This document shows positions 5,612 to 28,862 of a stretch of 64,000 nt of DNA, piece by piece. The stretch covers positions 6,473,439 through 6,537,438 of the forward strand of contig NZ_CP036271.1 of assembly GCF_007745175.1 (NCBI RefSeq), read 5' to 3'. The position numbers and the translations under genes are program-made. Origin of the DNA: Caulifigura coniformis. Lineage in GTDB: Bacteria; Planctomycetota; Planctomycetia; Planctomycetales; Planctomycetaceae. How positions within the stretch are numbered: position 1 is the stretch's first letter; the number at the start of each line of letters is the position of its first letter. The notes beneath the pieces are model-generated. The model had not been told where the DNA came from and did not search any database. It was given only the letters and a program-made list of their open reading frames with translations.

Positions 5612-5613
5612 CC

Positions 5614-6253: not shown

Positions 6254-6275
6254 CACGCCGACATATGTCTCGATC

Positions 6276-8962: not shown

Positions 8963-8986
8963 TTAAACCACGATTTGTGGATAATT
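8963..8986. promoter_or_regulatory. TGTGGATAA site with partial dyad
   Basis: TGTGGATAA at 8976-8984, preceded by a partly matching arm (TTAAACCAC, 8963-8971), is a third copy of the TTATCCACA-type element seen at 891 and 14617. It sits in the 333-base gap between divergent genes starting at 8810 and 9144. No other feature is evident in that gap. Confidence 0.35.
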
Positions 8987-9143
8987 CGTTCCACGGCGGA
9001 GTTCGGTACTCGGCCCAAATTCCGGCTGGCCCTAGACGTTAAACCGCACGTGACACACTTTTGAAGGTTGCCCAGTAAACGCCAGCTGCTCCCCGCCCTT
9101 CCGCGAGTGACCGGGAATCACACTACGATTGACGCAGCTCTCG

Positions 9144-9531: not shown

Positions 9532-9727
9532 TCGCTGGTTGCGTGGACCGGCGCGGCCGTTCCCTCAGCCCGGGGAGCGTCCAGCCGATTCATCAGCCGG
9601 TCCGAGGTCCTTCAGCCTTTGGCATCGCTCGATGCCTAAAATGTTATGAGGTGACCGTCCGCCACCGGGCGCGGGCGGCACGAAGCGAGGGGCTTCTGCG
9701 ATGAACTCGGCAATCGAAGGATCAATC

Positions 9728-10642: not shown

Positions 10643-10663
10643 GGCCCGAAGTGCTTCGACTGG

Positions 10664-11317: not shown

Positions 11318-11892
11318 TGGTTATCCACTTTCCCCCGAATCGGACCAAAGCATTCGTCCGACACCCGTGAACCCGATAGAAATAGCTTCGGCGAGGCATA
11401 ATCAACAATGGCAGTGTCGTTCGCAAGTGTCCCCTCCGTCGGGACCGGCATCAATTGCCACTTTCTTTTTCGGTGGATTCTAGGCAATGTTCGCAAAGAA
11501 AAGCGGCTTTCTGCCGGAATCCGGTGAATTTCGGGCGGGCCGCCTAGGAGCCCCGCCCATGCACCGCCGCCGCATTGCCGTGCTCTGGCCGTGTTCTCTG
11601 CCGTCGCGTCTGTCGCGTTCCTCGGGGCTCAGGAGAAACGGCGAGCCGTCGCCGTGGTGCTGGCCTTCGATCAGACGCCGCGCCAGCTGCCTCCGCTAAC
11701 CGAGACGGACTTCCTCGGTTCCAGAAGAGAAGATGGCGGAGTTGCTTCAGGAATATGTTCCGACGATCCAGCGACTTTTCGGCCCAGCAGGAGTGGCCGC
11801 GGTCATCGACTCGAATCTGTCGGCTCGAGATGTACCTCGCTCCCCGATGCAAGATCAATCGGGCTCGGGCAGCTTACCCCGGACGCGGAAAT

Positions 11893-11982
11893 GGACGGTC
11901 GGTCCGACTAATGCCGTGTCCGTCGGGGCGCTGGCGCCTGCGCCGCCGGCTCCCACTTGAGCGAGCAGTACTCCGACCGTCC
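11893..11982. repeat. 10-bp inverted repeat in a long gap
   Basis: GGACGGTCGG at 11893-11902 pairs with CCGACCGTCC at 11973-11982, with a GC-rich loop of 70 bases. It lies in the 771-base stretch 11318-12088, in which no frame looks like a protein: the open frames are Arg- and Pro-rich shadows. The inverted repeat may be a folded RNA, a protein site or a decayed element end. Confidence 0.35.
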
Positions 11983-12088
11983 GGGGGCTGCTGAATTCTT
12001 CGTCATCGCTGTCCGGACAGGCGTAAAACATGGTCGCCGCATTGAGCGGCTTGCGGGCGGTTGGCCAGAGTGATTCCAGTCGTCGACT

Positions 12089-14269: not shown

Positions 14270-14616
14270 ACTTTCCACCAGAGAGTCGATGTCGAACGGT
14301 AGCCCATCGATCCCAATCGAACAGGATCTCACCCTTCCACTCATTCGGCCCGATGATCGTCGCGATGCACCTTTGATCGCCCGTATCTGCCGATTGCTGG
14401 GCCGGAGTCTCGCTCTAATCGTCGGATCCATTTCCATGGGACTCTGTGTCGAGTCGCAGCGATAGTTGCGCATGGATCGGAAAGTCCGGTGCGACTGCTC
14501 GGGACACGCACGAGAGCCGGACACTGCAGTCGCTCAACGCGGTACTCGAACGATCGACGTCCAAGCGAATGAATTCCCCCAACGCCGTAGAAGCCTCTCG
14601 CGAGAACGTCGCGAAT

Positions 14617-14636
14617 AATCCACAGACTGTGGATAA
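14617..14636. promoter_or_regulatory. AATCCACA-GAC-TGTGGATAA dyad
   Basis: AATCCACA (14617-14624) faces TGTGGATAA (14628-14636). It matches the 891-911 dyad in centre and arms. It sits in the 912-base gap 14270-15181, upstream of the cadherin-repeat gene; the rest of that gap is C-rich and holds no believable frame. Confidence 0.4.
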
Positions 14637-15181
14637 CTGAGCACCCCCTCAGTCGTCGTGACACGCACAGCGGAATTCTCCCGTCACGCTCGCGGCCCCC
14701 GCCCCCTCCCCCGAAGTAGACCAACGCCTCGATATGTCGCTGCATCGCTCGCGAATCAGCCGGCCGCGACTGGGTGATTCTTCCAACGCATCGTCGGGGC
14801 ATGACGCGGGCGCAAACCACCACAGTTCAATGGTCAGTAAGTTTCATCACCCCGTCCGGTGAGGGTCGCGCATTTCGTGCCCCTCGGCCTCTCCATTGCG
14901 ACGGGTCCGCCAATGCTCCAACCGACCCCGACGCCCGCCTGATCACGGCGGTCACTGGACCTACCCACGGGCACTGGTAGGGCCATTTCACAGGGCACTC
15001 TTAACACAAGACGATCTTGCAGAATCACTCTGAAACATTGGAATTTCGGAGAATCCGAACGCCGCTTGCGACGTTTCATTCTGTCAGACGCGACAACGAT
15101 CGCAGTCGCTCGACACGCTTCGCGGCAACGTTTCCGCCGCCGGCCTCTCTCTCTCTCTCCTTCACTGCCTGGAGCATCCCC

Positions 15182-15589
15182 ATGTCTGTCACTCTGCAGC
15201 ATTCCGTCACTCGCAACATCGTCCCCGCCCCCGATCATTCATCACCGGAACCCGTCGACTGGAATCGTCTCCGCAACGCGATCCGCAAACGCCTTCGCCA
15301 TCACTTCCGCACAAACGATCGCAACTGGACCGACTTCGACGACGCGACCCAGGACGCATGCGGATTCGCGGTCGCCGCCATCACTCGCGGCATCGCGCCT
15401 GGTCTCGCCGTGTTCCGCGCAGTCGGTCGGGTGAAGCGCGGCCAAACCCTCAACTGGGAACCGACCAAACGCAGCGAACGACCATGGGAAGAACGTGCCG
15501 ATTTCTCCCGATCGTTGAACGGTGTCTCACAAGCCACCCGCCGCGCATCCGCCGGCCTGCCGCTCTCCGGCTCTACGTCGCTCAACTGA
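15182..15589 (+). CDS. Small protein with a sigma-region-2-like N-terminus
   Basis: ATG at 15182 follows GGAG with a seven-base spacer (an in-frame earlier ATG at 15017 lacks one). 135 residues. Residues ~25-65 (NRLRNAIRKRLRHHF, then WTDFDDATQDACGFAVAAI) follow the pattern of region 2 of extracytoplasmic-function sigma factors, where R-K-R-L-R-x-R-F and DxxDAxQD are common. No region 4 follows; the C-terminus is basic and disordered. It could be a truncated sigma-like regulator or a phage-type factor. The next gene follows 117 bases later on the same strand. Confidence 0.5.
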   Translation: MSVTLQHSVTRNIVPAPDHSSPEPVDWNRLRNAIRKRLRHHFRTNDRNWTDFDDATQDACGFAVAAITRGIAPGLAVFRAVGRVKRGQTLNWEPTKRSERPWEERADFSRSLNGVSQATRRASAGLPLSGSTSLN

Positions 15590-15706
15590 CGCTCCAGACA
15601 CTCCGCCCACGTCCGCCGCGTACTTCTCGGCTGACGTTCAAGCACCAATCGCTCACCCAACTCATCTACCGCGCCATCACCCCCTACCAACTTTAGGAGT
15701 CCGTTC

Positions 15707-16150
15707 ATGTCCACCACCACCGCCGCCCGTTCATCCCGCCGCACCCAGGCCAGCTCTAACCCGGCGGGACCCTCCGCACCCCAATCCCGATCTTCCGCCA
15801 AGTCCAACGCCGCCGCAGGTGACCGTTGGTACATCAACGATCCCGCCACCAAGAGGCTCGACACGTCCGGCAATCCCGAACTCGCCTCCCAGATCCGTGA
15901 ACTCGAGTCATCAGCCCTCCCGGCTTCCGTGAGACAATCCGCCGTCGCCGGCCTCCGTCAGCAACAGGCATCAGCCAAGCCCCTCACGCTCACGATCGCC
16001 CGGGCCCAGAAAGCCGGCGCCCGCGACCTGATCGAAGTCGCCGGGGACTTCAAGTCGAAGCTCTTGAGCCCCTCCCTGGTCGCTGCCATCGCGGCCAAGC
16101 CCGAGTTCGTCCGCCAGTTCCTTGGGGAGTTCATGGCCAGCGACGAATAG
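15707..16150 (+). CDS. Unrecognised 147-aa protein
   Basis: ATG at 15707 follows TAGGAG. The first ~40 residues are Ser/Thr/Ala/Arg-rich and disordered; residues ~60-147 are helical (LASQIRELESSALPASVRQ, ARAQKAGARDLIEVAGDFK, KPEFVRQFLGEFM). It is followed by a terminator at 16215-16249 and preceded on the same strand by the sigma-like gene, which suggests one transcript. No family recognised. Confidence 0.55.
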   Translation: MSTTTAARSSRRTQASSNPAGPSAPQSRSSAKSNAAAGDRWYINDPATKRLDTSGNPELASQIRELESSALPASVRQSAVAGLRQQQASAKPLTLTIARAQKAGARDLIEVAGDFKSKLLSPSLVAAIAAKPEFVRQFLGEFMASDE

Positions 16151-16214
16151 GCCAGCCGATGCGCTCACCGGGTCTCACTCCCTCGAGCCGGCCGACAATC
16201 CAATCTCTCGCCCA

Positions 16215-16249
16215 CGCCCGCAGCCTTCACCGGCCAGCGGGCGTTTTTT
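16215..16249 (+). terminator. Rho-independent terminator
   Basis: CGCCCGC (16215-16221) pairs with GCGGGCG (16237-16243), followed by TTTTTT at 16244-16249. It ends the 15182-16150 gene pair. Confidence 0.8.
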
Positions 16250-17026
16250 CGTACCCTCCCCCGATCTCAGCTCCAGCCCGTTTCCAGGTCCGTTTCGTCC
16301 CGCCCAGCTCCCGCGGCACCCGACCATCTCCCTCAACCCCCACTCCTCGACCCTGCCCTCCACCGCCGCCGGCGACTCTTCCCCCTACCGAACGCTCAGC
16401 GACTCCGCGCCAGTTCCGCAGCCGCACCGATTCGCCATCTCGCCCGCGAAGTACCTGGCCTAGATCTCCGCCCTCCGGTTCACTCGCGCCACCTCCGAGC
16501 CTGGCCCAGCCCAGGAACCCGACTGAAACCAACGAGCCACCGCCCACAGGGAATGTACGGGGATTGTGATAAAGGCAAAGCCAAGGCAGCATCGAAGATG
16601 CCGGACGAGTGGAAACGGGTAGCGGCCTGCTCAGTCGTTCATCAAAACAGGGCCGCAGTCGACTCAAAGCGCCCCAAATGTCCCATTGCTCCCATTTTGC
16701 CCCAGTCGACGACTGCTGTTGAATTGAGTTATTCAACAGCAGCATCGGTGTATGTGAATAATTAGTAATAGCTTACGTTGAATGTAGTTGCTCGCGGTTC
16801 AGCTCGCCTGGGAGGCCTGCCAAGCCGCTGCATCCGACGCAGATTTACGCAAGCAATTACAAGTCATTACGTTGCGGCAATTTTCTCTCGATTTCCCACC
16901 TGAACTTCCGCGGGCGGGGGACCAGGGGGGGGGGTCACCCATTTCGCGCTGGACATAGACCTAGGTTCCTCGAGGGGGATTTTTCACGATTTTTCACTTG
17001 GGCCACCAAATATGCCAAGTGGCTAG

Positions 17027-17164
17027 TTTCGGGCACTTCGGGCGGTTCGGGCACTTCTTCTCTCTTCTGCGCAATAGAGAGAGTCAGGTACTGACTGAGC
17101 GTAGATACACGGCAATAGGGACCTAGAGGCCACAATAGGAAATAGGTGCCCGAAGTGCCCGAAA
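17027..17164. repeat. Perfect 17-bp inverted repeat with iteron-like internal copies
   Basis: TTTCGGGCACTTCGGGC at 17027-17043 is perfectly inverted at 17148-17164. The core TTCGGGCACTTC occurs again in direct orientation at 17046-17057, an 18-base step. The stretch lies in a 1.3-kb gene-free region (16151-17456) that also holds a poly-G run near 16924. No believable gene is seen here. The arrangement resembles iterons or a multimeric regulator site. Confidence 0.55.
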
Positions 17165-17456
17165 CGCCCGTACTGAGTAGATGCGAACGATCCCGGATGC
17201 TCACTGGTTCTGCGGGATGCCGCTGAGATGTCCGGCGAGCGACTTTGCAGGGACGGCCTACCGGTGAAGTGCTGCGGGCCGGCCCCGTCGGTCCGACGAC
17301 ACATCGTGCAGAGTCGCCAGCGGTACGCCTGGGAGTGACGCGTCAGTGATCCCTGTAGGGCGTGTGAGTTGTGCGATGAGGACTCGCGGAACCGAGCCGA
17401 TCGAGAATTTGTTTGGGTAGGCGGCGGCGATCATGGAGAATTTTCCCCTGCCCTAG

Positions 17457-18326
17457 GTAGCCCGGACATTCAGAACACCTCCGACACGAATGCGGCGAGC
17501 CAGACGAATCCGGTGAAGTTGATGGCTTTTTTCTCGTAGCGCGTCGCCACTCTGCGGAAACGCTTGATCCGGCCGAAGAACCGCTCGATCACGTTCCGGT
17601 GCCGGTACCGCTCCTTGTCGTAACGCTTTTTTACTCGCCGCGTCGGGTTCGGACGGATGCAGACCTTGGACCGCATCCGTCTGGCCCGCTCCCGGATCGC
17701 ATCGCTGTCATAGGCCGCATCCGCCAGCACATGGCCGACTGTCCCATTCTGGAAACCGTCCAAAAGTCCTTCCGCCTGGGGAGCGTCTCCGCATTGACCG
17801 GCCGTGATCAGCAGCCGGACCAGCCGACCACGCCGATCCACGGCCGCGTGGAGCTTGGTTGTCAGTCCGCCCCGGCTGCGCCCGAGACATCGCCGGGCGT
17901 CGGCCTCGTCTTTTTTTCCTTCGGCGTTCGCCGGCCCGTTGAGGCGACAGGGTGGGCCTTGATTGTCGTGGAATCGAGCTGGACCTCCTCCAGCTCGGGA
18001 TCGCCCAGGGCTTTGGCCAGTCGCTCCCACACTCCAGCAGCGCACCAGCGGTCAAACCGCTTCCAGACAGTGTTTGGCTTTCCGTAACGGGCAGGAAGGT
18101 CTTCCCACGGAACGCCGGTCTTCAAGACATAGAGCACCGCGTTGACGAACAGGCGGTTGTCGACGGCTGTTCGTCCGGGATCCGTCTGTTTCCCCGGGAG
18201 CAGATCGTTGATCTTCTCCCACTGCGCATCCGTGAGTTCATGGCGACGTCGCATCGGCTCTCCTCCTTGAGCGACGTCATCCTCAAGAAACACCCGCCGA
18301 TTCGCTAGGCTGAATGTCCGGGCTGC
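17457..18326 (-). mobile_element. IS5-family insertion sequence (IS427-like)
   Basis: The ends are 17-bp near-perfect inverted repeats: GTAGCCCGGACATTCAG at the left (17457-17473) and the inverse of GCAGCCCGGACATTCAG at the right (18310-18326), one mismatch. CTAG flanks the element at 17453-17456 and 18327-18330, as expected for a four-base target duplication. The ~870-bp length and two-frame transposase fit the IS427 group of IS5. Confidence 0.88.
17470..18254 (-). CDS. IS5-family transposase, two frames joined by frameshifting
   Basis: ATG at 18254 ([15 protein letters not shown]) follows AGGAGGAG. The first frame carries the N-terminal DUF4096-type domain ([21 protein letters not shown]) and the first Asp ([11 protein letters not shown]). 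The second frame, entered at a run of seven A on the coding strand (17911-17917), supplies DAAYDSD and the Glu in [17 protein letters not shown], completing the DDE triad. Programmed frameshifting at such an A7 run is normal for this group, so the element is probably intact. Confidence 0.88.
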
Positions 18327-18329
18327 CTA

Positions 18330-19356
18330 GAGCACTTCCACAGTTGCTTTTCAGAGGGATGATAGGGGAAAGGATTTCTCAAGTGGTTGGCTCCATCAAG
18401 GAAGAGTCATGCCCACCCCCTACTCAATGGATTTGAGGCGACGTGTCGTGGCCGAAGTCGACCGCGGCTCTCCGCCGGCCGAAGTCGCCCGGCGATTTCA
18501 GGTCACTGAACGAACCATCTGGAACTGGCTCGCGCTTCGCAAAGAGACTGGCCAGATCACTCCCCGGCAGGGAGATGTCGGCCCGGAGTGCGTTCTGGAA
18601 CCGCATCGGGAGCGGATTGTCAAAAGCGTCCAGGACGACCCCGGCCTGACGCTCGCCCAAAGGCAACGCCAACTCGGTCTGCCGGGCTGCGCGACCACTC
18701 TGTGGAATGCGCTTCGGCGCTGGGGAATCACTCTCAAAAAAAGTGCTCAAAGCTGCTGAACAACAGCGGCCGGATGTGGCTCAGAAGCGCCGCTGGTGGA
18801 ACATCCTGGTGCAGTCGAAAGCCTGTCGCCGTCTGGTGTTCTTCGACGAAACCGGGGCCGACACGAAGATGACGCGACGCTATGGCTGGGGACCAAAATC
18901 ACGCCGGGTCGTGGACCATGTCCCTCAAGGGCATTGGAAAACGACGACGTTCGCAGCGGCGCTCAGGGCCAGCGGAGTGATTGCTCCCCTGGTGCTGGAT
19001 GGCCCGATGGATGGGGAATGCTTTCTGGCTTACGTCCGTCAGTTCCTGATCCCGGCGCTGGAGCCGGGAGACTTGGTGGTCATGGACAACCTCAGCAGCC
19101 ACAAGCAGAGCGCGGTGGGTGACGCGATTCGACAGGCCGGGGCTGAGGTGTACTACCTGCCGCCGTACTCACCCGATCTCAACCCGATCGAGAAGTTGTT
19201 CTCGAAGTTCAAGACGCTTTTGCGGACGAGCGCTGAACGGACGACAGAAGGACTCTGGAACCGGATCGGAGTGCTGGTGGACGAGTTCACTCCGAGCGAA
19301 TGCCTGAACTACATCCGTTCCTGCGGATACACTGCACACGAATCATGAAGTTGCTC
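18330..19356 (+). mobile_element. IS630-family insertion sequence
   Basis: The left end GAGCACTTCCACAG and the inverted right end GAGCAACTTCATGA form imperfect terminal repeats. TA flanks both sides (18328-18329 and 19357-19358), the standard IS630 target duplication. It abuts the IS5-family element on the same CTAG. Confidence 0.85.
18409..19348 (+). CDS. IS630-family transposase, two frames joined by frameshifting
   Basis: The first frame (18409-18759) is the helix-turn-helix part (DLRRRVVAEVDRGSPPAEVARR, shortened here to its core AEVARRFQVTERTIWNW). The second frame ends at 19348 and holds the catalytic part: VFFDETGAD, VMDNLSSHK and PDLNPIEKLFSKFK supply the D-D-E residues. The switch is at seven A at 18736-18742, a typical slippery run. 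The family normally makes a fused product by frameshifting, so it may be functional. Confidence 0.87.
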
Positions 19357-19473
19357 TAGGAGCGGAGCCAGAAACGCCTGGATCGAGCCCTTCGAGAGAA
19401 TGGCTCAGTCAAATTCTCATGTCTGATTCATTGCTTTAGCGAGGAACTTTTTTTCCCGCGGCCATTCTGAGGT

Positions 19474-19965
19474 GTGCCTCGGCGAGCGTTCATGCGTCGG
19501 CCGGGCGCCCAACAACGACGAGGGATTGATTATCGCATCCGGGTTTCCCAGCCGGTCCGGGCTGCAGGGCTTCCCGAGTCAAGGGACACCGGGTCGGGAA
19601 ACGGGACGGGCCATCGCGATTCCCTCGGCTTTAGAGTGGAGGGACGAGCATCGCGGCATTCCGGGCATTCCAACTGGCCCAGGCTGGTCGTGGCCTTCCA
19701 GCAGCAGGCGACCGAGGTCCGGGAAGCGAAGGCGGCCGTCGAGGACGACGCCACGCGGAAGGAGCGACAGGTGCGTGTCGAACAGCTCGAGTTGCTATAC
19801 GGCCCGAAGCTCGACGCGATGACGCCGGCGGAACTGCAGGGGCTGATGAACGGGATGTCGACCTGGACGCGAAAGTGGATCGGCCGAGAGGGCCGGCAGG
19901 GGAAAGGGCGGGGACCACTGCTGGAACATCTGGCCGACCGCGCAGCGGGAAGTGATGGCGCATAA
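19474..19965 (+). CDS. Uncertain protein; only the C-terminal half looks genuine
   Basis: A GTG at 19474 opens a 163-residue frame. The first ~70 residues are basic and unstructured, while the last ~95 read naturally as helices (LVVAFQQQATEVREAKAAVE, RQVRVEQLELLYGPKLDAM, TPAELQGLMNGM). It may be the 3' end of a gene cut by the insertion sequences, or a gene with a start I cannot place. No family recognised. Confidence 0.35.
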   Translation: MPRRAFMRRPGAQQRRGIDYRIRVSQPVRAAGLPESRDTGSGNGTGHRDSLGFRVEGRASRHSGHSNWPRLVVAFQQQATEVREAKAAVEDDATRKERQVRVEQLELLYGPKLDAMTPAELQGLMNGMSTWTRKWIGREGRQGKGRGPLLEHLADRAAGSDGA

Positions 19966-19993
19966 AAAAAGGCCCGGCCGATTGGGCCGGGCT
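19964..19993 (-). terminator. Rho-independent terminator for the 20-28 kb block
   Basis: GCCCGGCC (19972-19979) pairs with GGCCGGGC (19985-19992). On the minus strand the stem is followed by seven T (A run at 19964-19970). It ends the minus-strand gene block whose last gene stops at 20006. Confidence 0.75.
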
Positions 19994-20005
19994 TGATCTC
20001 AAGCA

Positions 20006-20539
20006 TCAGCTTGCGATCTCGTCGATGTCGCCAAAGCCATGCTGAGACCCGCGTTGCACACGTCCGGCCTTCACCAAGTTTCCTCGTTTTCGGATCGCCA
20101 TCAAAGCGGCGTAGATGATCGTTCCGTTGACGATTCGACCCGTCGCAATTGCGAACTCGGAAGACAACATGTCGGCCATCTTCTGGTCATAGCCGATGTT
20201 GTCCGATCCGATGCCGGCTGACGCGAAGAGACGATTGTAAATCTCTTCCGCGGCCTTCAGCTCTTCATCACTGAATTGAACGCTTCCGGCCGAGTACCGC
20301 TGGTGGTCCGCTCCAAGCTTTTCCCAGTTCCCGCCCTTCCGCTTCGTTTTCATGTAGTGCATCAGGTCGCCCTCCGAGTCGTCCCGGCTCGAGCGAAGAT
20401 TCCAGGCCCGGACGAACCGCGCCTTGTCTTCAGGACGCTTGTCGAATTGGTCGGTCGGAATGCGCCACAGCTTGTACAACCTCCTCAGCAATTGGTCATC
20501 GTGAGGAGGAAGGCGTATTGATCTACGTTTGGTCTTCAT
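20006..20539 (-). CDS. Unrecognised 177-aa element protein
   Basis: ATG at 20539 begins MKTKRRSIRLPPHDDQLLRRL. The protein is soluble and charged; the middle (SVQFSDEELKAAEEIYNRLF) and the C-terminal part (GRIVNGTIIYAALMAIRKRG) look helical and DNA-binding-like. It is the last gene of the minus-strand block and is followed by the terminator at 19964-19993. No family recognised. Confidence 0.6.
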   Translation of the reverse strand: MKTKRRSIRLPPHDDQLLRRLYKLWRIPTDQFDKRPEDKARFVRAWNLRSSRDDSEGDLMHYMKTKRKGGNWEKLGADHQRYSAGSVQFSDEELKAAEEIYNRLFASAGIGSDNIGYDQKMADMLSSEFAIATGRIVNGTIIYAALMAIRKRGNLVKAGRVQRGSQHGFGDIDEIAS

Positions 20540-20654
20540 CTAGAGTTATTCCCCGTGGAGCGGATGAGACATTTGGTCGCCAAACCTCGTTTGTCTCTCC
20601 GCAGCTGACGTTGTCGAGTAAACGGGGAAGCCTCACGGCTTCCCCGTACGAGCT

Positions 20655-21797
20655 TCATCGCATCGACAAAATTCTTGGCGCGTCACCTCCTTCTGTGTCG
20701 TCTGCATCGTCCACCTCCGCCCCGATGGCGTCGGCCAATCGCTGCTTAAGTTCCTCGGACGGAACCGATGTCACGGCCTCGATCTCTCGCCATGTCAAAC
20801 GGTTCTCCCCGTGGGCCGCGCTGTCCAGCAGGAGTTCAAATCGAATCGCGCGATCACGCCAAACGTATCCGGGTTCCTTTGTCCTCCAGCCACGCTTGGC
20901 AAACTGTATCCACAACCATTTCGCTGCATTCTTGTCCAGAATGCCCTCTTTCTCAGCGCGATAGATCATCGCCGACATCGCGATTCCGAACTGCTCCTTG
21001 AACTTCAAAAGTCGAAGGATGGACCGCCCCTGAAACGCAAGTTCGAGCTGTGGGCGAGGCAACAGAAGGAATGAGCCGAATTCGAAAACCCGCTGCTCCA
21101 TCTCCTTCTCGGACAGGCCTGAGATCGACTGGCAATCACCGAAGAGAACATGGCCCAGCTCATGGCCAGCATTGAGCCGGCAGCGATCGTTCGAGGTCTC
21201 CGGGTTGAGTACCACTACATGCTCGTCTCCAAGGCACGCGGCGAGACCATCTATTCGGAGTTCGGAGCGCAACTCGATCGTTCGAATTGCAAACATCTCC
21301 AAGATCTCAACGACGCTCTGAATCGGCTGATCGTCTCGAAGGTTGAGCTTCGCCCTCAGCCGTTCCGCGACCTGACGGCCTGATTCACCAGACTTAACCT
21401 CGAAACCTTTGACATCGAGATGGCGACCCAACGGGACTCGCAGTCGCCGCTCGAGCCGGGTGTAACCCTCCAAGAGCTTCTTTGCCGCCCCTTCAAATCG
21501 GTGACGATCCTGAACCCGAACCTTCGAAGGGAGATTGCGGTAATGAATGCCGGTGAGCGAGTTGCCAGGCTCTATGAACCAGTTGAGGGGGCGCTCGTAG
21601 ACGCTCGCCAGCACAGCGATGACGTCCAATGGGGGCGACGACTTCCCACTTTCGTAATTCGCGAGAGTTGTATGGGAAACAGCGTATTTGGACGACAACA
21701 TTGCGGCGACGGCCCGTGTCGATAATCCAGTGGCGAGCCTCGCCTCCTTGAGCTTCACGGCAAGCGTCCTTGCGATTTGTCGTGACAACACAGACAT
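20655..21797 (-). CDS. XRE regulator fused to ImmA/IrrE-type metalloprotease (M78)
   Basis: ATG at 21797 follows GGAG with a six-base spacer. Residues ~12-75 form an XRE helix-turn-helix (LATGLSTRAVAAMLSSKYAV, SHTTLANYESGKSSP). Residues ~170-260 contain the M78 motif HELGHVLFGDC, the zinc-binding HExxH with its catalytic Glu, after CRLNAGHEL. In integrative elements such as ICEBs1, ImmA cleaves the repressor to switch on excision; in fused forms both activities are in one protein. Here it probably controls the 20-28 kb block, and sits next to a 548-base non-coding stretch where its operator should lie. Confidence 0.88.
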   Translation of the reverse strand: MSVLSRQIARTLAVKLKEARLATGLSTRAVAAMLSSKYAVSHTTLANYESGKSSPPLDVIAVLASVYERPLNWFIEPGNSLTGIHYRNLPSKVRVQDRHRFEGAAKKLLEGYTRLERRLRVPLGRHLDVKGFEVKSGESGRQVAERLRAKLNLRDDQPIQSVVEILEMFAIRTIELRSELRIDGLAACLGDEHVVVLNPETSNDRCRLNAGHELGHVLFGDCQSISGLSEKEMEQRVFEFGSFLLLPRPQLELAFQGRSILRLLKFKEQFGIAMSAMIYRAEKEGILDKNAAKWLWIQFAKRGWRTKEPGYVWRDRAIRFELLLDSAAHGENRLTWREIEAVTSVPSEELKQRLADAIGAEVDDADDTEGGDAPRILSMR

Positions 21798-22345
21798 GGG
21801 TACTCCGGCGGGGGTGTAACGCTCAGTTTACATTCTGGAAATTCTGTACTCAAGTGGTTTCCATGCGGAAATGGAGGCCCTGCCCTCCCCTCCGCGCGAA
21901 CGAAACTCCTGAGCTGGCGGCCGCTCGCGACGCTCACCGGGCGCAGCAGGGTATACAGCAAAGCCATTAGGGCGCCGCGCCATATGAGCCAGACCCCCGG
22001 GGGAGGGAGTGAAATTCTGGCGTGCCACGGCCTCGGAAACCGCCCGGCCACTCCACGTTTCGCGGCAGCATTTGGTTGCAGCCGGGGAGACTCGGACGCC
22101 CCTCCTTGAGCATCCTTCCTCCAGTGCGACGCGGTGAGATTCGAGGCGGCCCATCGGCCGAGCGTTTGTCTTCAGTCCTGAACTTCTTCCATGGCCTCCG
22201 CTACGGATCGCTTCATTCAGTTCCGATGGAGCGGCCCTCGCTGGAAATGCGCCATCGGTCACGGAGTAATCCGATCGGCGAGAGTGGAATACGGCGAGAC
22301 GTCGGCCCAAAGATCTCGCATTGGAGGCCTTCGAGAAACGCAGAG
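21798..22345. other. Gap without a supported gene
   Basis: 548 bases between the XRE-M78 gene and the primase-helicase stop. The first ~50 bases before the XRE-M78 start are AT-richer (TTTCCAGAATGTAAACTGAG on the minus strand) and are the likely promoter-operator. The remainder is GC-rich; its open frames look like shadows. Confidence 0.4.
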
Positions 22346-25021
22346 CTAGATCCCCGACTGCTGTCGCGCACTAATCCGCGATTCGAGATCTCCGTACGTT
22401 TTGGCACCTTGCTCGGCGAGCCACCCGGTCCAAACGAATCCGCGTCCCCAGTCTTTTCGTACAATCACAGACAGTGTGACGACGGATCTTTCGCAGATCA
22501 TTTGCTTGAGCTTCTGCGTTGATGCAGTCGTAGTGAACTTGTCTCTCATGGCCTCGGACAGCCACTGGGCAGCGATCGTTGACAGGATGAACACCCGATC
22601 CTTCTCGGGATCGTAGCCGTACTCGCGCAACTTACCGGCGAAATAGTCTTGAAGAACCGAACACTCCTCCTGGTCGGCATCGACCAGTTCCTGTCGCTCC
22701 AGGATTGTACGCTGCGCGTCAGCTGGTTCAGCGGAACGTGTGAGCACGTCGTGCTCCCAACTGCTCCAACGACTGTATTTCGCGAGTGGAGTGCGAGCTG
22801 CGCGGAGAAAGCCAATGCAGTCGGCAATAATGGCCCCCCGATTGACGTCGATGAACGTTCGCATCTCTTCTTTCCAGGTACCGCTGTATCGCGGGCGGTC
22901 AAGCTTGATGATCACGCACCGCTGAGCAAGGTCCTTGGACAGACTGGCGCCGTTCAGAGTGATGATCCATGTGTACGTGTTCGGCCTGGAACCTTCACCG
23001 ACGTAGAGCTTCTTGCCTGAGATGACGGGGGCCGTGATCATGGACTCGATCTCTGCGCAGGAGAACTTCAGCGACTTCACGTTGTCGAGCGCGATAACGC
23101 GTTTCGAGCTCCCTTCTTTGGAGAGAATCCTCTGCTTGACGATGTTGACGTCGTCTCTCGCCTGGATGTCGAGTGCTCCGCCGGCCAGATGTGACAAGAG
23201 CTCAAGTGCGGTCGACTTGCCCACACCGCGACCTGCGTCGGAGGTAAGAAGAAATGCTGGTCGACAACCACCGCTTCCGCCCCAGAAGAGGGTGACGACT
23301 AGGGATGTCAGCAGATCGCGGTCGATGTCCGATGATGGGCAGAACTGCTGAACCAACCTCTGCAGAGTGGCGCCATCGCCGGGTAGAGGCACGTTACAGG
23401 CGTAGAAATGCCCAGAGATTGGAGGTTCGTGTGGAAAGACTTCAACCGCCAAGTAGCTCGGAGCGAGGCGGCGCAATTCTTCGAACACGTGACCAGGGGT
23501 ATGCGATCCCTCTTTGTTCTTGAAGATCGGGGGATAGCCCAGTCGTGTTCCCAGCCAACCGAACAGCGAGTTGATTGAGTCTATCCATGTCACCCCAGAG
23601 TTGGGGTCTGGGACGAATAGTGATGTCTCGACCCGGCGCGGCCATCGCCCGGCCAACCTGGAGAGGTCCGAAAGCATTTGCTCCATGGAGCGTGGCTGCT
23701 CGATCCATTTATTCTCGATCAGGTCTCTCTTGATATTCGAGAATCTGGCATGGGGCGGGACAGGCTGTACTTCACTTCCATCCGTTGCCAGTTCCTCGCC
23801 TGAGATTTCCGCACACGGCGCGGTACGCGAACCGGTCTCCACGCCAGCCGAGGCAGATGTATCTTCCGGCCACATCCAAGACGTGTCGATCGTGAATTCC
23901 GGTACAGCATCGCTGCTCGAAATGCGTTGTCCGCCATTGATCAAGTACCCACGATTCCCCTCCAGCTTGTCCGCTTCGAACAGCTTTCGTTCGAGTTCTC
24001 GCTCGTCCCATGGCGGCTGGCAGGTTTGATTCCATTCGACGAAATACTTGATGGCCTGCTCGGGCGTCAGATTGAATCCGAGCACCAAAACACACGCGGT
24101 CGCGTAGGTGCGGGAGTGACCACCCTGACCACTGACAGCCGGCGGCATCGCGGAAAGGTACGTTCGAATCTGCTCATCCGAGGCTTCTCGCTTCTCAGTG
24201 CCCGGCGCCGGAACGATATAGACGGACGACTGACCGCGCCTCTTCGGTTCGGCTGGAGATTCAGCAGCCAAGGCCTCGAGCAGTTCTCGCCCGACTGGAA
24301 TGTCCCACCCCTCGCGGGCCGCACCACCATCCAGCAATTGCGAACGGCGATGCGGCCGTTCAGGAGTGTGGTCTCCCTTTCTTGCAATCGAACCGTAGGC
24401 CTTCGTGATCCGACTCGGATTGAAATTCACCGTGTCGATCTTGACCTTCTTCGAATCAAACTTCGCAGCGATCGCTCGGAGACAGTTCTTCACCAGCACG
24501 TTGTCGCTGACGGGCAGGTCGATTTTGACGAGTAAGTGAATGCCGTTTCCTGAGTCGGCAGGAAGGGCCTGCGGAAACCCGCGATCCTGGAGGAACTTGT
24601 TGACCTGCTTGGCGATGTCAACGGCGTGCTGCTTCTCCTCGACCGTTGCGGATACTCCACTCGGGCGGACTGGATCGACGTCGATGTACAGCCACGCCAG
24701 TCGAGCCACGTCCCCATCTGCAGCGAACGGGAACTTTCGATCTGCGTACTCGATGCGGTTCACTCGCCGCGCAAGAACGTCTTTCTTCAGCGGGTTTAGC
24801 GTGAGGTAAACGCCCTCGGCATTGTTGTCCGAGCATTGAAGAATCGCCTTTGCTGCGGCCTCGGCGTTGTCGAAGTAGCCGCCCCACTCCGCTCTGCGGC
24901 CACGGTTGGGAACGCCGAGAGCGCGAACCTCCAGGCAGTGGCCGTCAACCAATAAATAGTTGACGGCTCGAGTCACGTCGCCGAGAAGTCGTCCTCTTGC
25001 GTCATCCACCTGCGGCCTCAT
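22346..25021 (-). CDS. Primase-helicase replication protein (AEP-like primase plus SF3/D5-like ATPase)
   Basis: I start at the ATG at 25021 (MRPQVDDARG); an ATG at 25120 adds 33 basic residues but overlaps the upstream gene. About 891 residues. The N-terminal ~250 carry archaeo-eukaryotic primase motifs: WLYIDVDP (metal-binding D-x-D), DSGNGIHLLVKI (G-x-H motif) and VNFNPSRITKAYGS. A PriCT-like linker follows (RTYATACVLVLGFNLTPEQA). The C-terminal ~350 residues hold an ATPase with Walker A GRGVGKSTALELL and Walker B RVIALDN. This is the organisation of P4-alpha-like and plasmid replicases that prime and unwind an autonomous origin. The block has no other replication gene. Confidence 0.85.
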   Translation of the reverse strand: MRPQVDDARGRLLGDVTRAVNYLLVDGHCLEVRALGVPNRGRRAEWGGYFDNAEAAAKAILQCSDNNAEGVYLTLNPLKKDVLARRVNRIEYADRKFPFAADGDVARLAWLYIDVDPVRPSGVSATVEEKQHAVDIAKQVNKFLQDRGFPQALPADSGNGIHLLVKIDLPVSDNVLVKNCLRAIAAKFDSKKVKIDTVNFNPSRITKAYGSIARKGDHTPERPHRRSQLLDGGAAREGWDIPVGRELLEALAAESPAEPKRRGQSSVYIVPAPGTEKREASDEQIRTYLSAMPPAVSGQGGHSRTYATACVLVLGFNLTPEQAIKYFVEWNQTCQPPWDERELERKLFEADKLEGNRGYLINGGQRISSSDAVPEFTIDTSWMWPEDTSASAGVETGSRTAPCAEISGEELATDGSEVQPVPPHARFSNIKRDLIENKWIEQPRSMEQMLSDLSRLAGRWPRRVETSLFVPDPNSGVTWIDSINSLFGWLGTRLGYPPIFKNKEGSHTPGHVFEELRRLAPSYLAVEVFPHEPPISGHFYACNVPLPGDGATLQRLVQQFCPSSDIDRDLLTSLVVTLFWGGSGGCRPAFLLTSDAGRGVGKSTALELLSHLAGGALDIQARDDVNIVKQRILSKEGSSKRVIALDNVKSLKFSCAEIESMITAPVISGKKLYVGEGSRPNTYTWIITLNGASLSKDLAQRCVIIKLDRPRYSGTWKEEMRTFIDVNRGAIIADCIGFLRAARTPLAKYSRWSSWEHDVLTRSAEPADAQRTILERQELVDADQEECSVLQDYFAGKLREYGYDPEKDRVFILSTIAAQWLSEAMRDKFTTTASTQKLKQMICERSVVTLSVIVRKDWGRGFVWTGWLAEQGAKTYGDLESRISARQQSGI

Positions 25022-25062
25022 GCCCAAACGTGCGAGTATCCGAGAAACCTGCCGTCTACGAT

Positions 25063-25683
25063 CTAGACGCCTGCACCGCGGTCGCCGAATGCGAGAGCAT
25101 CGGCTGCTTTTGCTCGACATTGCTGCAAGTGAAGAAAGAACGGCGTGTCCGAGGAACCTAGGTGGCTAAGCCCGCAAACGGACGAATCGTGGCGTTTCAG
25201 CAGCCAACTCTGCGCAGCGGCCGCCGTACGGATCTCTCCGCTGCACCCGAAAACGGCCCTCATCTCCCGAGTGACTTGCGGATTGTCGCACGCCCAAACG
25301 ACACGAGGCAGGTTGAATCGTAGCCTCCCAGGATCAGGTCCCGTATATCGCAGGCGACTTGCAGCTCGTAGCTTCACGATTGTCTGCACGATCCTTTGGC
25401 GAACAGGATCATTGATGAACGACGTGTCGGCAGGAATCCGGCCGAACATCGGATCCACTGCAAACTGCTCAACGGCCGAAAGTGGTACGAGGTCATATTT
25501 CAACCAGGCAGCAATGAGCTGCCGTTCGGCTTTCGCGACATCTGCTTGAAGTAATCGATCACACTCTTGTGATGCGCGCAGTCTCCTGAGCGGCCTGTCG
25601 TTAGTGGTCCGGCTCCCGGGCTTGCTTGACGTATTGCGAAGAAGTGGCAGCCTTATTGACATACTGTGAAGTTGTGATACCAT
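25063..25683 (-). CDS. Unrecognised 206-aa element protein
   Basis: ATG at 25683 (or the ATG at 25662, MSIRLPLLRN). It ends 41 bases before the chosen primase-helicase start, so the two are probably co-expressed. The middle (LIAAWLKYDLVPLSAVEQF, VRQRIVQTIVKLRAASRL) is helical; there are scattered Cys near the C-terminus (ACDNPQ, FGCSGE, VCGLSH). Two near-identical 16-base repeats overlap its 5' end. No family recognised. Confidence 0.55.
   Translation of the reverse strand: MVSQLHSMSIRLPLLRNTSSKPGSRTTNDRPLRRLRASQECDRLLQADVAKAERQLIAAWLKYDLVPLSAVEQFAVDPMFGRIPADTSFINDPVRQRIVQTIVKLRAASRLRYTGPDPGRLRFNLPRVVWACDNPQVTREMRAVFGCSGEIRTAAAAQSWLLKRHDSSVCGLSHLGSSDTPFFLHLQQCRAKAADALAFGDRGAGV
25626..25671. 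promoter_or_regulatory. Two 16-bp direct repeats at a gene start
   Basis: TTGACGTATTGCGAAG (25626-25641) and TTGACATACTGTGAAG (25656-25671) differ at three positions and start 30 bases apart, about three DNA turns. They overlap the start of the 25063-25683 gene, fitting an operator bound on one helix face. Confidence 0.45.
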
Positions 25684-25712
25684 CGTATTGCCTTGTCGTA
25701 AGGGGCTCTGCG

Positions 25713-25745
25713 CCGCCGGCCAGCTGCAAACTGACGGCGGTTTTT
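25713..25745 (+). terminator. Plus-strand terminator-like hairpin
   Basis: CCGCCG (25713-25718) pairs with CGGCGG (25735-25740) around a short inner stem, then TTTTT. No plus-strand gene ends here, so it may end a short RNA or be incidental. Confidence 0.45.
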
Positions 25746-25774
25746 CATGCGCGTAAGCGTTTTCCGCGCATGAA
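25744..25774. repeat. Perfect 10-bp inverted repeat
   Basis: TTCATGCGCG (25744-25753) is perfectly inverted at 25765-25774, directly after the stop of the small gene 25780-25998 on the minus strand. It probably forms an RNA hairpin at the end of that transcript, though it lacks a following T run. Confidence 0.5.
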
Positions 25775-25779
25775 GGAAA

Positions 25780-25998
25780 TCAGAAGGCATTCTTCTTAGT
25801 AACCTTGGCCCCACCAGCCGATGGCTCATCCTCGGCTAATGCTGTCTCAAGGGCGGAGACTACAAACTCCCCAGGCGTTTGGCCTGCTTTAGCGGCGGCT
25901 GTCACAATTCGTTGCTCGAGAATCAAGCCGATTTTGACCGCGACTCGATCGAGCGTGTGGGCGCCACTAGAGGGCAAACCGTTGTTTGCTGTAGTCAT
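25780..25998 (-). CDS. Small ribbon-helix-helix-like protein
   Basis: 72 residues from the ATG at 25998. The central part has a short strand then two helices (RVAVKIGLILEQRIVTAAAK, AGQTPGEFVVSALETAL), the order of a ribbon-helix-helix DNA-binding fold, with an acidic then basic tail. It lies between the excisionase-like gene and the 206-aa gene in the same direction. It may be a regulator or plasmid-type copy control or partition helper; none of these is shown. Confidence 0.6.
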   Translation of the reverse strand: MTTANNGLPSSGAHTLDRVAVKIGLILEQRIVTAAAKAGQTPGEFVVSALETALAEDEPSAGGAKVTKKNAF

Positions 25999-26036
25999 CT
26001 CAGTCCAATTCCGAACGGGGAACGCACGCCAGTCGT

Positions 26037-26255
26037 TTAGCCTTCAAGCTGCGCAGCGAAACTCACGCACCTCGACTCGAGCCAACGATCGAGGTCGGCT
26101 TTCCGGTAGGCGACTTTTCGGCCGAGCTTTAGGAACTTCGGGCCGAAACCGCGGCACCGCCAGGGGGCGAGCGTCGCTTCCGCCACTCCGAGATACTCGG
26201 CAGCCTGGGCGGACGAGAGTTTTGGATCTGATTGGACGATTTCAGTTGCTGTCAT
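26037..26255 (-). CDS. AlpA/excisionase-like helix-turn-helix protein
   Basis: ATG at 26255 follows GGAG; an upstream 32-residue extension has no support. 72 residues with the HTH_17 pattern: LSSAQAAEYLGVAEATLAPW, then RGFGPKFLKLGRKVAYRKADLDRWLE. This is the winged-helix found in AlpA regulators and excisionases, which bind next to the integrase gene and steer excision. Its position in the integrase-led block supports that role. Confidence 0.85.
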   Translation of the reverse strand: MTATEIVQSDPKLSSAQAAEYLGVAEATLAPWRCRGFGPKFLKLGRKVAYRKADLDRWLESRCVSFAAQLEG

Positions 26256-26435
26256 GAGATTCTCCAGTCGATGCCAGCGTGATGCAGATTGCTGGTCTCT
26301 ACTGGAGGTTCGGTTGTGAACAGTTTTGACCCGAAGCCTGCTTGAATTCACAGCTTTTCACAGCAGCGAAGGAAGGCAGCTCTCTATAACTTGCGATCTG
26401 CACGGTGTTTGCAGAGAGGTGTGAAAAACGCGATT

Positions 26436-27449
26436 TCACGATCGACGTGAAGTACTGCTCGTGAAATCCGTCAAATGAGCGTTTTCACGAAGCCGGTTCG
26501 ACCTCCTACTCTTCTCTAGCTTGTTTACCGCCTGCTTCGCTTTCCATACGGGGTCAGCTCTAACTGCGTCAGCAGTTCTCACGATGGTTGAAGCGACCCG
26601 AATCGCTACGTCTGAGGAGCTCAGAAAGATGTTCTCCGGGGCATCGCAATAGAGCCTCAGGATTGCTTTGCTGAGAGGGGTGAGGCAATCCAAAGTGCCG
26701 AGTTGCTCCTGCAATAGATCGGTGATGGGCGTGATCTCATGGGGGATACGAGGCGGAACGGGGCGCGCTGGTGGCGATAGCGCGAAAGATGCGGACTCAC
26801 TGAGACTTTGACCAGTGCTCTCGTGAGGCCGGCGAGCATGTCCCGTTGGGGAGTGAGCAGTCTTACTTAATCGAGATTTCGCATCAGGGCCTGGTTCTTC
26901 CGCTGCGGACAACACATCCACCTCGGCGGAGTTCTCCCAAAAGTAAGAAGTCGACCTCGTTTCGCAAACATCCAGAAGCTGTGTCCCTAAGACGCACCAA
27001 TCCGCTGCTCCAATGAGTCTATGACGCTCCACGATTTCTTCGCCAATAGCGGTCAATCGGAGCTCGCAATCCCTCCACGTCCAGTGAATGCGGTCACTTG
27101 GCACGCCAAAGCGGTCAGCGCTGATCAGGAGTGTGTTCTTAACGAACTCCGTGACCGGCTCGCCCGAAGCTATGAAGGAGATTGATCGCGGCCCGCCTTT
27201 CTCGGGCGGGTTCAGAAGGTGGAATGACAGCCTCGCCTGCGCCAAGCCACCCTTAATTAATGAGTGTAGGGCGAGCTCCTCCATTTCTGACCAATCCAGA
27301 GTCGGAAGCCATGACCCATTTAATCCGAAAAGAACGCGAACCGCTGCTTCCGCCTTCCTCTGAAACGATACCACGGAGGCGATATCGTGACGCTCATGGC
27401 CTATTGCGCGAGGCCGCTCGGCAGCCAGTTCCTGCTTTGGACAATTCAC
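26436..27449 (-). CDS. Unrecognised 337-aa element protein
   Basis: ATG at 27449 overlaps the integrase stop by four bases (ATGA), so it is translationally coupled to the integrase. Residues ~35-130 look folded; residues ~185-235 are Pro/Ser-rich linker; the last ~90 residues are helical and basic (VWKAKQAVNKLEKSRRSNRL). No known domain recognised. Coupling to an integrase suggests a role in excision, replication control or superinfection behaviour, but this is inference. Confidence 0.65.
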   Translation of the reverse strand: MNCPKQELAAERPRAIGHERHDIASVVSFQRKAEAAVRVLFGLNGSWLPTLDWSEMEELALHSLIKGGLAQARLSFHLLNPPEKGGPRSISFIASGEPVTEFVKNTLLISADRFGVPSDRIHWTWRDCELRLTAIGEEIVERHRLIGAADWCVLGTQLLDVCETRSTSYFWENSAEVDVLSAAEEPGPDAKSRLSKTAHSPTGHARRPHESTGQSLSESASFALSPPARPVPPRIPHEITPITDLLQEQLGTLDCLTPLSKAILRLYCDAPENIFLSSSDVAIRVASTIVRTADAVRADPVWKAKQAVNKLEKSRRSNRLRENAHLTDFTSSTSRRS

Positions 27450-28627
27450 GAGAAGTTTCCTTTCCGTCTCGCCGCTTTCAGCGTTACCCGCAGCGCGTCA
27501 TCGACAGCCCGTCGCACCTGCTCGGCCTCCATCGGGCTGTAGAACCTCGCCGTTACTTCGACTGTCGCATGCCCGAGCGTCTGCTGGATTGTCCGCAGGG
27601 ACTCGCCATTCGCTTGTTGCCACGCACCGAGTGATCGCCGCAGATCGTGGATCCTCAAATCCGGCAGTTTTGCCGCCGCCTTAACGCGAACCCACGCATA
27701 CTTGGGGTCGCTGTAGAAGCCGTCTTTGCCTCTGCCGGGAAACACCCACTTCACATTCGGTTGCCAGCTCTTCCTGCGTCTCTGGAGAATCCTCAACGCC
27801 ATCATTGAAAGGGGAACGACGTGCGGACGCTTGGACTTGTACTTCCCTGCGGGGATCGTCCAGAGACGCGTGGAGAAATCCAGCTCGACCCACTCCATCG
27901 CCGCGACGTTGGACCGCCTGGCGCCGGTGAACAGCAGGAGATGAAAGAAGTCCTTGGCATCCTGGCTTCTGAGGCCGTCGACAGCGGTCATGAACGCGGC
28001 GACCTCTTCCGTCTTCAGATACCTCTGTCGCGGATCAAAGTCTGGACGGTACGTGCCGCGGACCGGGTTGACGTCGCACCATCTGCCCGCGATTCCAACT
28101 TCGAACATTTTTCCAAGAAGTGCTCGAGCTTTCCGTGCAGGCCCCCTTCCGTATTCTCGTTCGGTGCTGGCAACAAACTTTTCGATGTCGGTTCGATCTA
28201 CTTTCGCCAGCAACTCGCTGCCGAACTCAGGCTTGATCAGCCGCGAGTACTCTTTCTCATCACGGCGCCATGTCCGTTTGCGCGGCCTTGAATGCGTCTC
28301 GAAGTAATGTGTCCAGAGGTCGTCGACGGTAGCCCTGCCAGTCTTTCGACGCTGGCTGATGTCTCGCCCAGCAGCAACATCGCCGAGATACTGCGTGCAG
28401 ACCTTGCGAGCCTCGTCGACCGAAATGCTTGGAAAAGTTCCAAGCTTCAGCCGAGTGGGACGGCCCTTCACACGGCCGACGTAGTAGAAAACCTTCTTGC
28501 CTCTGGGAGAGACCGTAACCGCAAACCCCGGAGTACGATCGTCGAATATCCAGGTGGCCCGGTCCGACGCATTCTTGAGCGTCGAAACGCGACTGTTCGT
28601 GAGCCTCTCCTGTCTGCTTGTCCCCAC
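27446..28627 (-). CDS. P4-type tyrosine integrase
   Basis: I start at GTG 28627, seven bases after GGAGG (28635-28639); a TTG at 28675 is the longest frame. About 393 residues. The N-terminal ~90 residues are a DUF4102-type arm-binding domain (GFAVTVSPRGKKVFYYVGRV, LKLGTFPSISVDEAR). Residues ~100-190 form the core-binding domain. The catalytic domain has TGARRSNVAAMEW (first Arg), IHDLRRSLGAW (His, second Arg), LGHATVEVTARFY (His and nucleophile Tyr). It heads the minus-strand block 20.0-28.6 kb and has arm-site-like direct repeats immediately upstream. Confidence 0.92.
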   Translation of the reverse strand: MGTSRQERLTNSRVSTLKNASDRATWIFDDRTPGFAVTVSPRGKKVFYYVGRVKGRPTRLKLGTFPSISVDEARKVCTQYLGDVAAGRDISQRRKTGRATVDDLWTHYFETHSRPRKRTWRRDEKEYSRLIKPEFGSELLAKVDRTDIEKFVASTEREYGRGPARKARALLGKMFEVGIAGRWCDVNPVRGTYRPDFDPRQRYLKTEEVAAFMTAVDGLRSQDAKDFFHLLLFTGARRSNVAAMEWVELDFSTRLWTIPAGKYKSKRPHVVPLSMMALRILQRRRKSWQPNVKWVFPGRGKDGFYSDPKYAWVRVKAAAKLPDLRIHDLRRSLGAWQQANGESLRTIQQTLGHATVEVTARFYSPMEAEQVRRAVDDALRVTLKAARRKGNFS

Positions 28628-28643
28628 CCGGAAACCTCCGAGA

Positions 28644-28782
28644 TTTTGCAACAATTTTGCAACGCCACAGAGCAATCACGGCCCCTTTGCAACAACTTAG
28701 GGCAATCCTCTGTTTCCGGGACAGTAGTGATCTGGCGAGGTAAAACAATGACAAACAATGACACGCAACGTCATTTTGCAAC
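28644..28782. repeat. Four TTTTGCAAC-type direct repeats upstream of the integrase
   Basis: TTTTGCAAC occurs at 28644-28652, 28655-28663 and 28774-28782, and CTTTGCAAC at 28685-28693, all on the plus strand. An 11-base CTGTTTCCGGG also occurs twice, near 28703 and 28798. Short direct repeats next to an arm-domain integrase are typical of its arm-type binding sites, so the attachment site probably lies in 28640-28820. Nothing else is coding between 28628 and 28956. Confidence 0.6.
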
Positions 28783-28819
28783 GGATTCTTGACCCTCGCT
28801 GTTTCCGGGTTTTTTATTG

Positions 28820-28862
28820 ATCCCCTGCAGTTCAGTGATGATCTGCAGGGGATTTTTCTTTT
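28820..28862 (+). terminator. Strong plus-strand terminator hairpin beside the presumed attachment site
   Basis: ATCCCCTGCAG (28820-28830) pairs perfectly with CTGCAGGGGAT (28843-28853), then TTTTCTTTT. No plus-strand gene lies just upstream. It may be the retained 3' end of a gene or RNA that the element integrated next to. Confidence 0.65.

Follow-up and report, generated by a model that had tools for sequence, protein, structure and literature searches.

Phage P4 and related satellites have compact genomes of about 10–15 kb, in which a primase of the TOPRIM/Zn type is fused to a superfamily 3 (SF3) helicase. Cryptic integrated elements bearing a primase of the archaeo-eukaryotic (AEP) type form another described class, and AEPs from 12 bacterial phyla are reported in the main text of PMC5862659, which contains no word beginning with "Planctomyc". 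Here we analyse a locus of this general kind in the planctomycete Caulifigura coniformis, whose genome is a single contig of 6.76 Mb. The window, that is the whole stretch of 64,000 nucleotides analysed (NZ_CP036271.1, positions 6,473,439 to 6,537,438), holds at 19964–28862 a block of genes that an earlier note had taken for a P4-like satellite or mobilisable element. Our analyses make it likely that this block is the right, attR-proximal end of a 64.8-kb cryptic integrative element, of which it would form the integration and replication module. Positions are those of the window unless the genome is named.

The evidence that carries this reading lies at the two ends of the element, and first in two features at the right end.

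28795..28817, no strand: attR core CTCGCTGTTTCCGGGTTTTTTAT, 23 bp, an exact direct repeat
28644..28782 (copies at 28645, 28656, 28686 and 28775), plus strand: four putative integrase arm-type sites, TTTGCAAC

A whole-genome BLAST search with 28600–29300 found an exact partner of the 23-bp core, in the same orientation, at genome positions 6437457–6437479 (window coordinate -35981; E 6.2e-4). The two copies are spaced 64,776 bp apart, the left one lying 36 kb outside the window. Across the 107 kb between genome position 6430000 and the window end, no other exact direct repeat whose copies are separated by 1 kb or more is longer than 16 bp. In the same 107 kb, TTTGCAAC occurs six times, against about 1.6 copies expected by chance from the composition of both strands. 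All six are at the two ends and on one strand, and the reverse complement is absent. The four copies directly inside the right core (genome 6502083, 6502094, 6502124 and 6502213) are the only ones within the window; the other two (6437523 and 6437534) lie 44–62 bp inside the left core. A core-P' ... P-core arrangement is the layout expected from a single tyrosine integrase. Because the repeats and their inner sites match it, we infer that the 23-bp repeats are attL and attR, flanking arm sites. The right limit proposed in the earlier note was therefore close, and the arm-site-like repeats that it saw there are these four copies, whereas the left limit has to be moved to a repeat far beyond the window. 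A search within the window, comparing the integrase end with the left side, gave no convincing att pair: the longest exact match between 28600–29300 and 10000–20100 was at most 11 bp, and 28600–29000 shared no 20-mer with 14500–20100 even when 4 mismatches were allowed.

The left core is also informative about the target. It completes a strong hairpin (-29.9 kcal/mol, z -4.0), to which it contributes the 3' arm and the T-run, so that the element probably inserted into an intrinsic terminator. The insertion point is about 370 bp downstream of a gene that we take, by eye, to be HAD-hydrolase-like, divergent from a presumed recO. No tRNA was found in the window or in loci L252–L254 to its left, and the insertion site is a terminator-like hairpin; of the 25 elements mapped in the main text of PMC5862659, 14 lie within tRNA genes. 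Rfam gave no match at the gathering threshold in the window, and near attL only two matches far below the gathering score (E 0.74 and 0.79). The GC content is 0.625 in the left flank, 0.599 and 0.592 inside, and 0.645 in the right flank. On this reading the genes at 28960–31142 lie outside the element. They include a DUF2806 protein (29304–31142) beside small plus-strand genes, one of which, of 57 aa, has relatives in three other loci (L025, L030 and L048). A further gene of the right flank (32056–33312) has partial and weak matches in other genomes. A stretch of 146 bp just right of attR (28956–29101) is 96% identical to genome positions 3404762–3404907, with further pieces nearby; the whole-genome search ranked this match at 3.40 Mb above the 23-bp repeat, to which it is irrelevant.

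The block itself contains the following features.

19964..19996, closing the minus-strand block: intrinsic-terminator-like hairpin and T-run
20006..20539, minus strand: 177-aa protein (p177), constant neighbour of XRE-M78, with two predicted four-helix repeats
20655..21797, minus strand: XRE-M78 (ImmA/IrrE) fusion, 380 aa, RmrA-like (HTH_31, Peptidase_M78, PADLOC RmrA, phrog_2439)
21798..22345, no strand: intergenic stretch of 548 bp without a convincing gene, between the primase-helicase and XRE-M78
22346..25120, minus strand: primase-helicase, 924 aa (AEP-type at about 40–300, helical linker 310–410, SF3 458–916)
25063..25683, minus strand: 206-aa protein (p206), orphan
25780..25998, minus strand: 72-aa protein, perhaps ribbon-helix-helix (phrog_5363, E 0.042, weak)
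26037..26351, minus strand: AlpA/excisionase-like helix-turn-helix (HTH) protein, 104 aa (HTH_17 4.2e-11; phrog_66 excisionase 1.1e-8)
26436..27449, minus strand: 337-aa protein, orphan
27446..28675, minus strand: tyrosine integrase, 409 aa as listed (Phage_integrase 1.6e-20, Arm-DNA-bind_3 6.7e-13, phrog_1 9.5e-56)

The integrase, the AlpA-like protein, the primase-helicase and the XRE-M78 fusion thus share the minus strand. The integrase probably starts near 28627, which would place the arm sites upstream of its coding sequence, and the primase-helicase probably at Met34 (25021), past the p206 stop. Codon-position GC bias supports most of the block genes as real. The GC content at third codon positions (GC3) is 0.66–0.71 against 0.42–0.48 at second positions (GC2) for p177, XRE-M78, the primase-helicase and the integrase, and 0.62 against 0.51 for the AlpA gene. 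The profile is flatter for the 206-, 72- and 337-aa genes (GC3 0.56–0.58, GC2 0.50). An open reading frame (ORF) of 160 aa at 21828–22310 (GC2 0.64, GC3 0.59, no Pfam match) was taken as spurious, and the 548-bp stretch around it is a candidate regulatory region or origin. Much of the earlier description of the block holds: the P4-type integrase, the AlpA-like protein, the fused XRE-ImmA regulator and the flanking terminator are all borne out, and the partners of 177, 206 and 337 aa are indeed unrecognised, with no Pfam family at E 0.1. The 337-aa protein also lacks PHROG, NCBIfam and PADLOC matches; neither it nor the 206-aa protein was found in any of 58 other genomes or confirmed in viral contigs. 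The 72-aa ORF is present as described, but its ribbon-helix-helix identity is weak, and it has no NCBIfam or PADLOC match.

Among the closest described systems are the class iii cryptic integrated elements (all3500-type fusions) of Kazlauskas et al. 2018 (PMC5862659), which, as the main text presents them, resemble this one in a tyrosine integrase at direct repeats, an AEP-helicase fusion and the lack of recognised conjugation or phage genes. In that class the flanking repeats stem from an integrase of the tyrosine or the serine type. The AEP identity of the primase found here rests on AEP-like residues (DxD at 147/149, SGNGxH at 190–195, D229), on a LigD_Prim-Pol Pfam match of 6e-4, below the curated cut-off, and on related viral loci; AEP relatives are common in viral contigs, with 207 confirmed stretches, of which the best 80 were retained. 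The N-terminus matches our AEP profile (A1) and not a self-built TOPRIM profile. The 924-aa protein matched no solved AEP in a sequence search of the PDB, and hhalign of the AEP part against a two-sequence Prim-Pol set gave nothing. With respect to the PrimPol-PV1 supergroup of the class iii elements, the observations are the AEP motifs and this negative hhalign comparison. The primase-helicase of the earlier note stands as regards the AEP motifs and the Walker A motif (630–637).

The helicase half is predicted to be of SF3 type, with the fold of SaPI5 Rep, NrS-1 and D5 and with Walker A. In a model of the whole protein (mean pLDDT, the predicted local confidence, 73.3) this half is confident. 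Foldseek placed it closest to the C-terminal region of NrS-1 (6k9c, 7.3e-10), followed by SaPI5 (7ola) and PriRep1 (7pds), and also lists poxviral D5/E5 and asfarviral PrimPol as structural relatives; VIA-align gave Z 17.4 to PriRep1 (7pds) over 377 residues, with a root-mean-square deviation of 5.7. The resemblance to the staphylococcal SaPI5 Rep and PriRep1 helicases and to the primase-polymerase of phage NrS-1 concerns the predicted helicase fold (residues about 457–917), whereas the sequence identity is 11–14% and the primase domain and the host phylum are different.

We compared the primase-helicase with two genome sets, one of 59 genomes including its own (58 others) and one of 397 genomes of the class; L-numbers denote loci and G-numbers genomes. 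The 924-aa protein has matches in 26 of the 59 genomes (own included), mostly to the primase part or the linker. The shared AEP part is fused to other helicases in L025 (Pfam D5_N/DUF5906) and L026 (AAA_25), and a single AEP family fused to different helicases is already on record in the main text of PMC5862659. The helicase part (A2) was found in 36 of the 397 class genomes, own included, at 1e-15. A pattern-based contig scan, which can miss relatives, added five loci, all titled Planctomycetota or Planctomycetaceae, and one viral contig (L156) carries A2; this contig also matches a small terminase (1.4e-15) and shows short stretches resembling tail fibres. The 924-aa protein alone gave no match in the contig database; among 50,697 phage records and 72,556 plasmid records it had 3 and 2 matches, respectively, and no match spanned more than 80% of the protein. 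An integrase lies within 6.2 kb of the helicase in 21 of the 43 other helicase loci, many of which end at contig ends; 11 of the loci have AlpA on the helicase strand no more than 1 kb away, and 27 have one or both genes. This recurrence of the core agrees with the earlier idea of an integrating, probably self-replicating element. When ORFs of at least 70 aa from 39 loci were clustered, only the primase and the integrase, besides antisense frames, occurred in at least 10 loci (45 of the 100 clusters considered).

The same helicase lineage occurs with several kinds of primase. A TOPRIM-like primase, by a profile built from three of them, shares the ORF in 16 of the 44 helicase loci, window included in that total. 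Pfam, applied to six of the 16, reported a Toprim family in three of them, of which L037 and L200 pass the cut-off and L022 falls short of it, and none in L186, L187 and L190; given this mixed support, only some of the rows can firmly be called TOPRIM-like. Other partners are Prim-Pol PF09250 (L195, L198), NrS-1 HBD (L199), DUF3854 (L205) and an N-terminus that is NrS-1-like by eye (L197), and the AEP type of the window recurs in L206 as a separate upstream gene. In a helicase tree of 34 rows, from which rows of fewer than 300 aligned residues and L215–L217 were left out, L191 and L195 (99/97) and L073 and L198 (96/82) are sisters, and in each pair one is TOPRIM-like by profile and the other Prim-Pol by Pfam. 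In an earlier tree of 37 rows the supports were 90/88 and 88/87, under the starred level. The window helicase groups with most TOPRIM-like rows (97/93 in the first tree, 93/93 in the second), and in the second tree the primase labels cluster no more strongly than they do after shuffling (200 of 200 shuffles gave a value as low). An exchange of primases within this helicase lineage is thus well suggested, though not proven. The presence of DnaG- and AEP-type primases upstream of or fused to helicases of this broad kind has already been published, as the available text of PMC10061031 reports.

The rest of the element is of mixed content, and its listed features are these.

1..18325, no strand: element interior, with integrases, a cadherin-domain protein and unrecognised genes
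-414..728: second integrase, spanning the window edge
6731–7840: third integrase
12089–14524: cadherin-domain protein
18326..19359, plus strand: IS630-family insertion, with an identical 1034-bp copy at genome 4205670–4206703 (4.21 Mb)

The identity of the two IS630 copies indicates that this insertion is probably recent. A neighbouring stretch (17453–18331) has matches, mostly 64–80% identical, in many genomes of the family and is perhaps a decayed insertion sequence. Left of the window, Pfam reported DUF1275, SRAP, an rve transposase, Abi_alpha, a leucine-rich repeat (LRR) protein, a sigma-70 factor and the second integrase, in addition to type II secretion genes (T2SSE/F, secretin, GspL_C and N_methyl pseudopilin-type). 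Both the secretion cluster and an RHS protein whose C-terminus is phospholipase-A2-like lie within genome 6446000–6471000 (L252–L254). GspL has matches in 2 of the 58 other genomes, at 27–28% identity, and none in the lone genome of the same genus, a rarity that marks the cluster as accessory. In total 64 ORF pieces were scanned with Pfam, namely 8 from the block and 9, 10 and 37 from three further batches. The batch of 37, which includes window ORFs, is known by families and counts, with ORF assignment for its first member only; it adds one further Phage_integrase match, together with rve and DDE_3 matches. None of the 64 pieces matched a family of capsid, terminase, portal, relaxase or coupling proteins, although a divergent relaxase is possible. 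The earlier report of no capsid or conjugation genes therefore extends to the scanned pieces of the whole element, which in the missing relaxase and coupling protein differs from integrative conjugative and mobilisable elements.

Several observations weigh against a single 64.8-kb element built around this module. At least two extra integrases and one Phage_integrase ORF piece lie inside it, so that it may be composite; the stretch directly right of attR, at positions 29–31 kb, still has an island-like GC content of 0.57; and no empty site was seen in the 49 kb (G001) and 40 kb (G005) around recO in two other genomes, where neither the HAD gene nor the right flank has a match. The Pfam scan took ORFs mechanically from 110 aa upwards, shorter genes falling outside it, and the PHROG comparison covered the 8 block proteins. 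As for the primase, the pLDDT of the AEP half runs from about 24 to 84 in 10-residue blocks over residues 40–310, and the PDB fold list barely covers that half, so that the lack of an AEP family there is uninformative.

The most serious alternative refines our reading and does not exclude it. The element may have begun smaller and been enlarged by separate integrase- and insertion-sequence-borne insertions carrying the secretion, RHS and cadherin genes, in which case one functional unit would be made up of the ends and the right block alone; we consider this conceivable, though less likely than not. The further integrases, the IS630 copy shared with 4.21 Mb and the rve and DDE_3 matches speak for it, whereas the ends fit one integrase and no second repeat pair longer than 16 bp marks a nested element.

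A second question concerns the XRE-M78 fusion and p177. XRE-M78 carries HELGH at residue 212 and matches 14 PADLOC RmrA models (best 6.1e-36) and phrog_2439 (5.3e-41). p177 was found in 9 of the 397 class genomes at 1e-6 (own included), and in all nine the gene immediately upstream, on the same strand, is XRE-M78. A weaker relative outside these nine is fused to tetratricopeptide (TPR) repeats (L050, G023), with no XRE-M78 in the surrounding 14 kb. In the remaining eight genomes the 12.5–19.9 kb examined around the pair contain neither helicase A2 nor AEP A1, and integrase profile matches occur there in four (L048, L230, L231 and L232). Neither gene was seen in the other 43 helicase loci, with the truncation at contig ends mentioned above. 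Since the two genes are conserved together, absent from these loci and matched by RmrA models, we read them as cargo, probably a RosmerTA-like toxin-antitoxin or defence pair. According to the available text of PMC10440598, RosmerTA combines an ImmA-protease antitoxin, often with an HTH domain, with a variety of toxins, and it can protect cells from phage. The locus shares with it the HTH-M78 fusion and a constant partner gene, and differs in the partner, here a predicted two-repeat helical protein without a PADLOC match. That p177 is the toxin is a guess. Its model has a pLDDT of 78 and a pTM of 0.45, and no PDB fold was matched at E ≤ 0.001; the DNA-binding domains of Zeste and GT-1 came up with non-significant E values of 2–3.5.

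The pair could instead be the element's own excision or replication switch in the style of ImmR-ImmA. It shares the strand of the primase-helicase and adjoins it across the 548-bp gap, and a precedent exists in a Bacillus conjugative transposon, in which ImmA cleaves a repressor and integrase expression follows (PMC10440598, available text). The absence of both genes from the other helicase loci, and of helicase and AEP around the pair elsewhere, makes this unlikely. XRE-M78, offered in the earlier note as core control, appears rather to be part of a portable two-gene unit.

We consider it improbable that the element is a decayed prophage that has lost its structural genes. The viral contig L156 and the frequency of AEP relatives in viral contigs favour that view, while the 64 scanned pieces hold no structural remnants. 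Among the helicase-neighbour ORFs of other loci, 2 of 114 (from 180 ORFs, L156 left out) match phrog_2, a large terminase, and the 25 most-matched of 145 families near the helicase elsewhere include no capsid family. A phage-like region of the same genome (4824000–4843500, L039) encodes, besides the proteins named below, a 965-aa primase with distant helicase similarity, and its families are common to several relatives' loci.

Very improbable, finally, is a P4-like satellite of about 9 kb packaged by a helper phage, for which the arm-domain integrase, the AlpA-like gene, the primase-helicase and a possible helper near 4.83 Mb (large terminase subunit, integrase/invertase-type recombinase, ParB-methyltransferase) can be cited, but against which the position of attL speaks strongly, the repeats enclosing 64.8 kb, as do the failure of any exact match above 11 bp or 4-mismatch 20-mer to close the 9-kb block, the AEP-type rather than TOPRIM primase and the lack of a packaging or capsid-remodelling gene recognised by Pfam or PHROG.

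To conclude, we regard the locus as a real integrative element of a known general kind, larger than first reported and with a distinctive helicase that occurs with several primases. It is best filed as a cryptic integrated element and not as a P4-like satellite. The integrase would excise it as a circle, AlpA serving as its excision factor or as an activator, and on this circle the primase-helicase would melt an origin and prime replication, so that the element may survive and spread, with XRE-M78 and p177 riding along. As no transfer genes were recognised, it would have to move by means of a conjugative or phage helper or through natural uptake. More tentatively, Planctomycetota may harbour widespread replicating integrative elements in which one SF3 lineage swaps primases, the 65-kb case moving a type II secretion cluster and a new RosmerTA-like pair; the lineage would so far be confined to Planctomycetota and one viral contig, and the second protein of the pair would be a tandem-repeat helical protein that perhaps binds DNA. 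The earlier suggestion that this may be an island type still undescribed in the phylum is a weak one, as AEP-bearing cryptic elements are described (PMC5862659, main text). A literature search outside which most subscription journals fell found no paper by title on such elements in Planctomycetota. Our findings thus provide, for a phylum in which that search gave none, an integrative element whose candidate ends are mapped, and also a replicative helicase lineage found with several different primases. XRE-M78 and p177 are a candidate defence pair, and the element is a candidate carrier of a secretion system.

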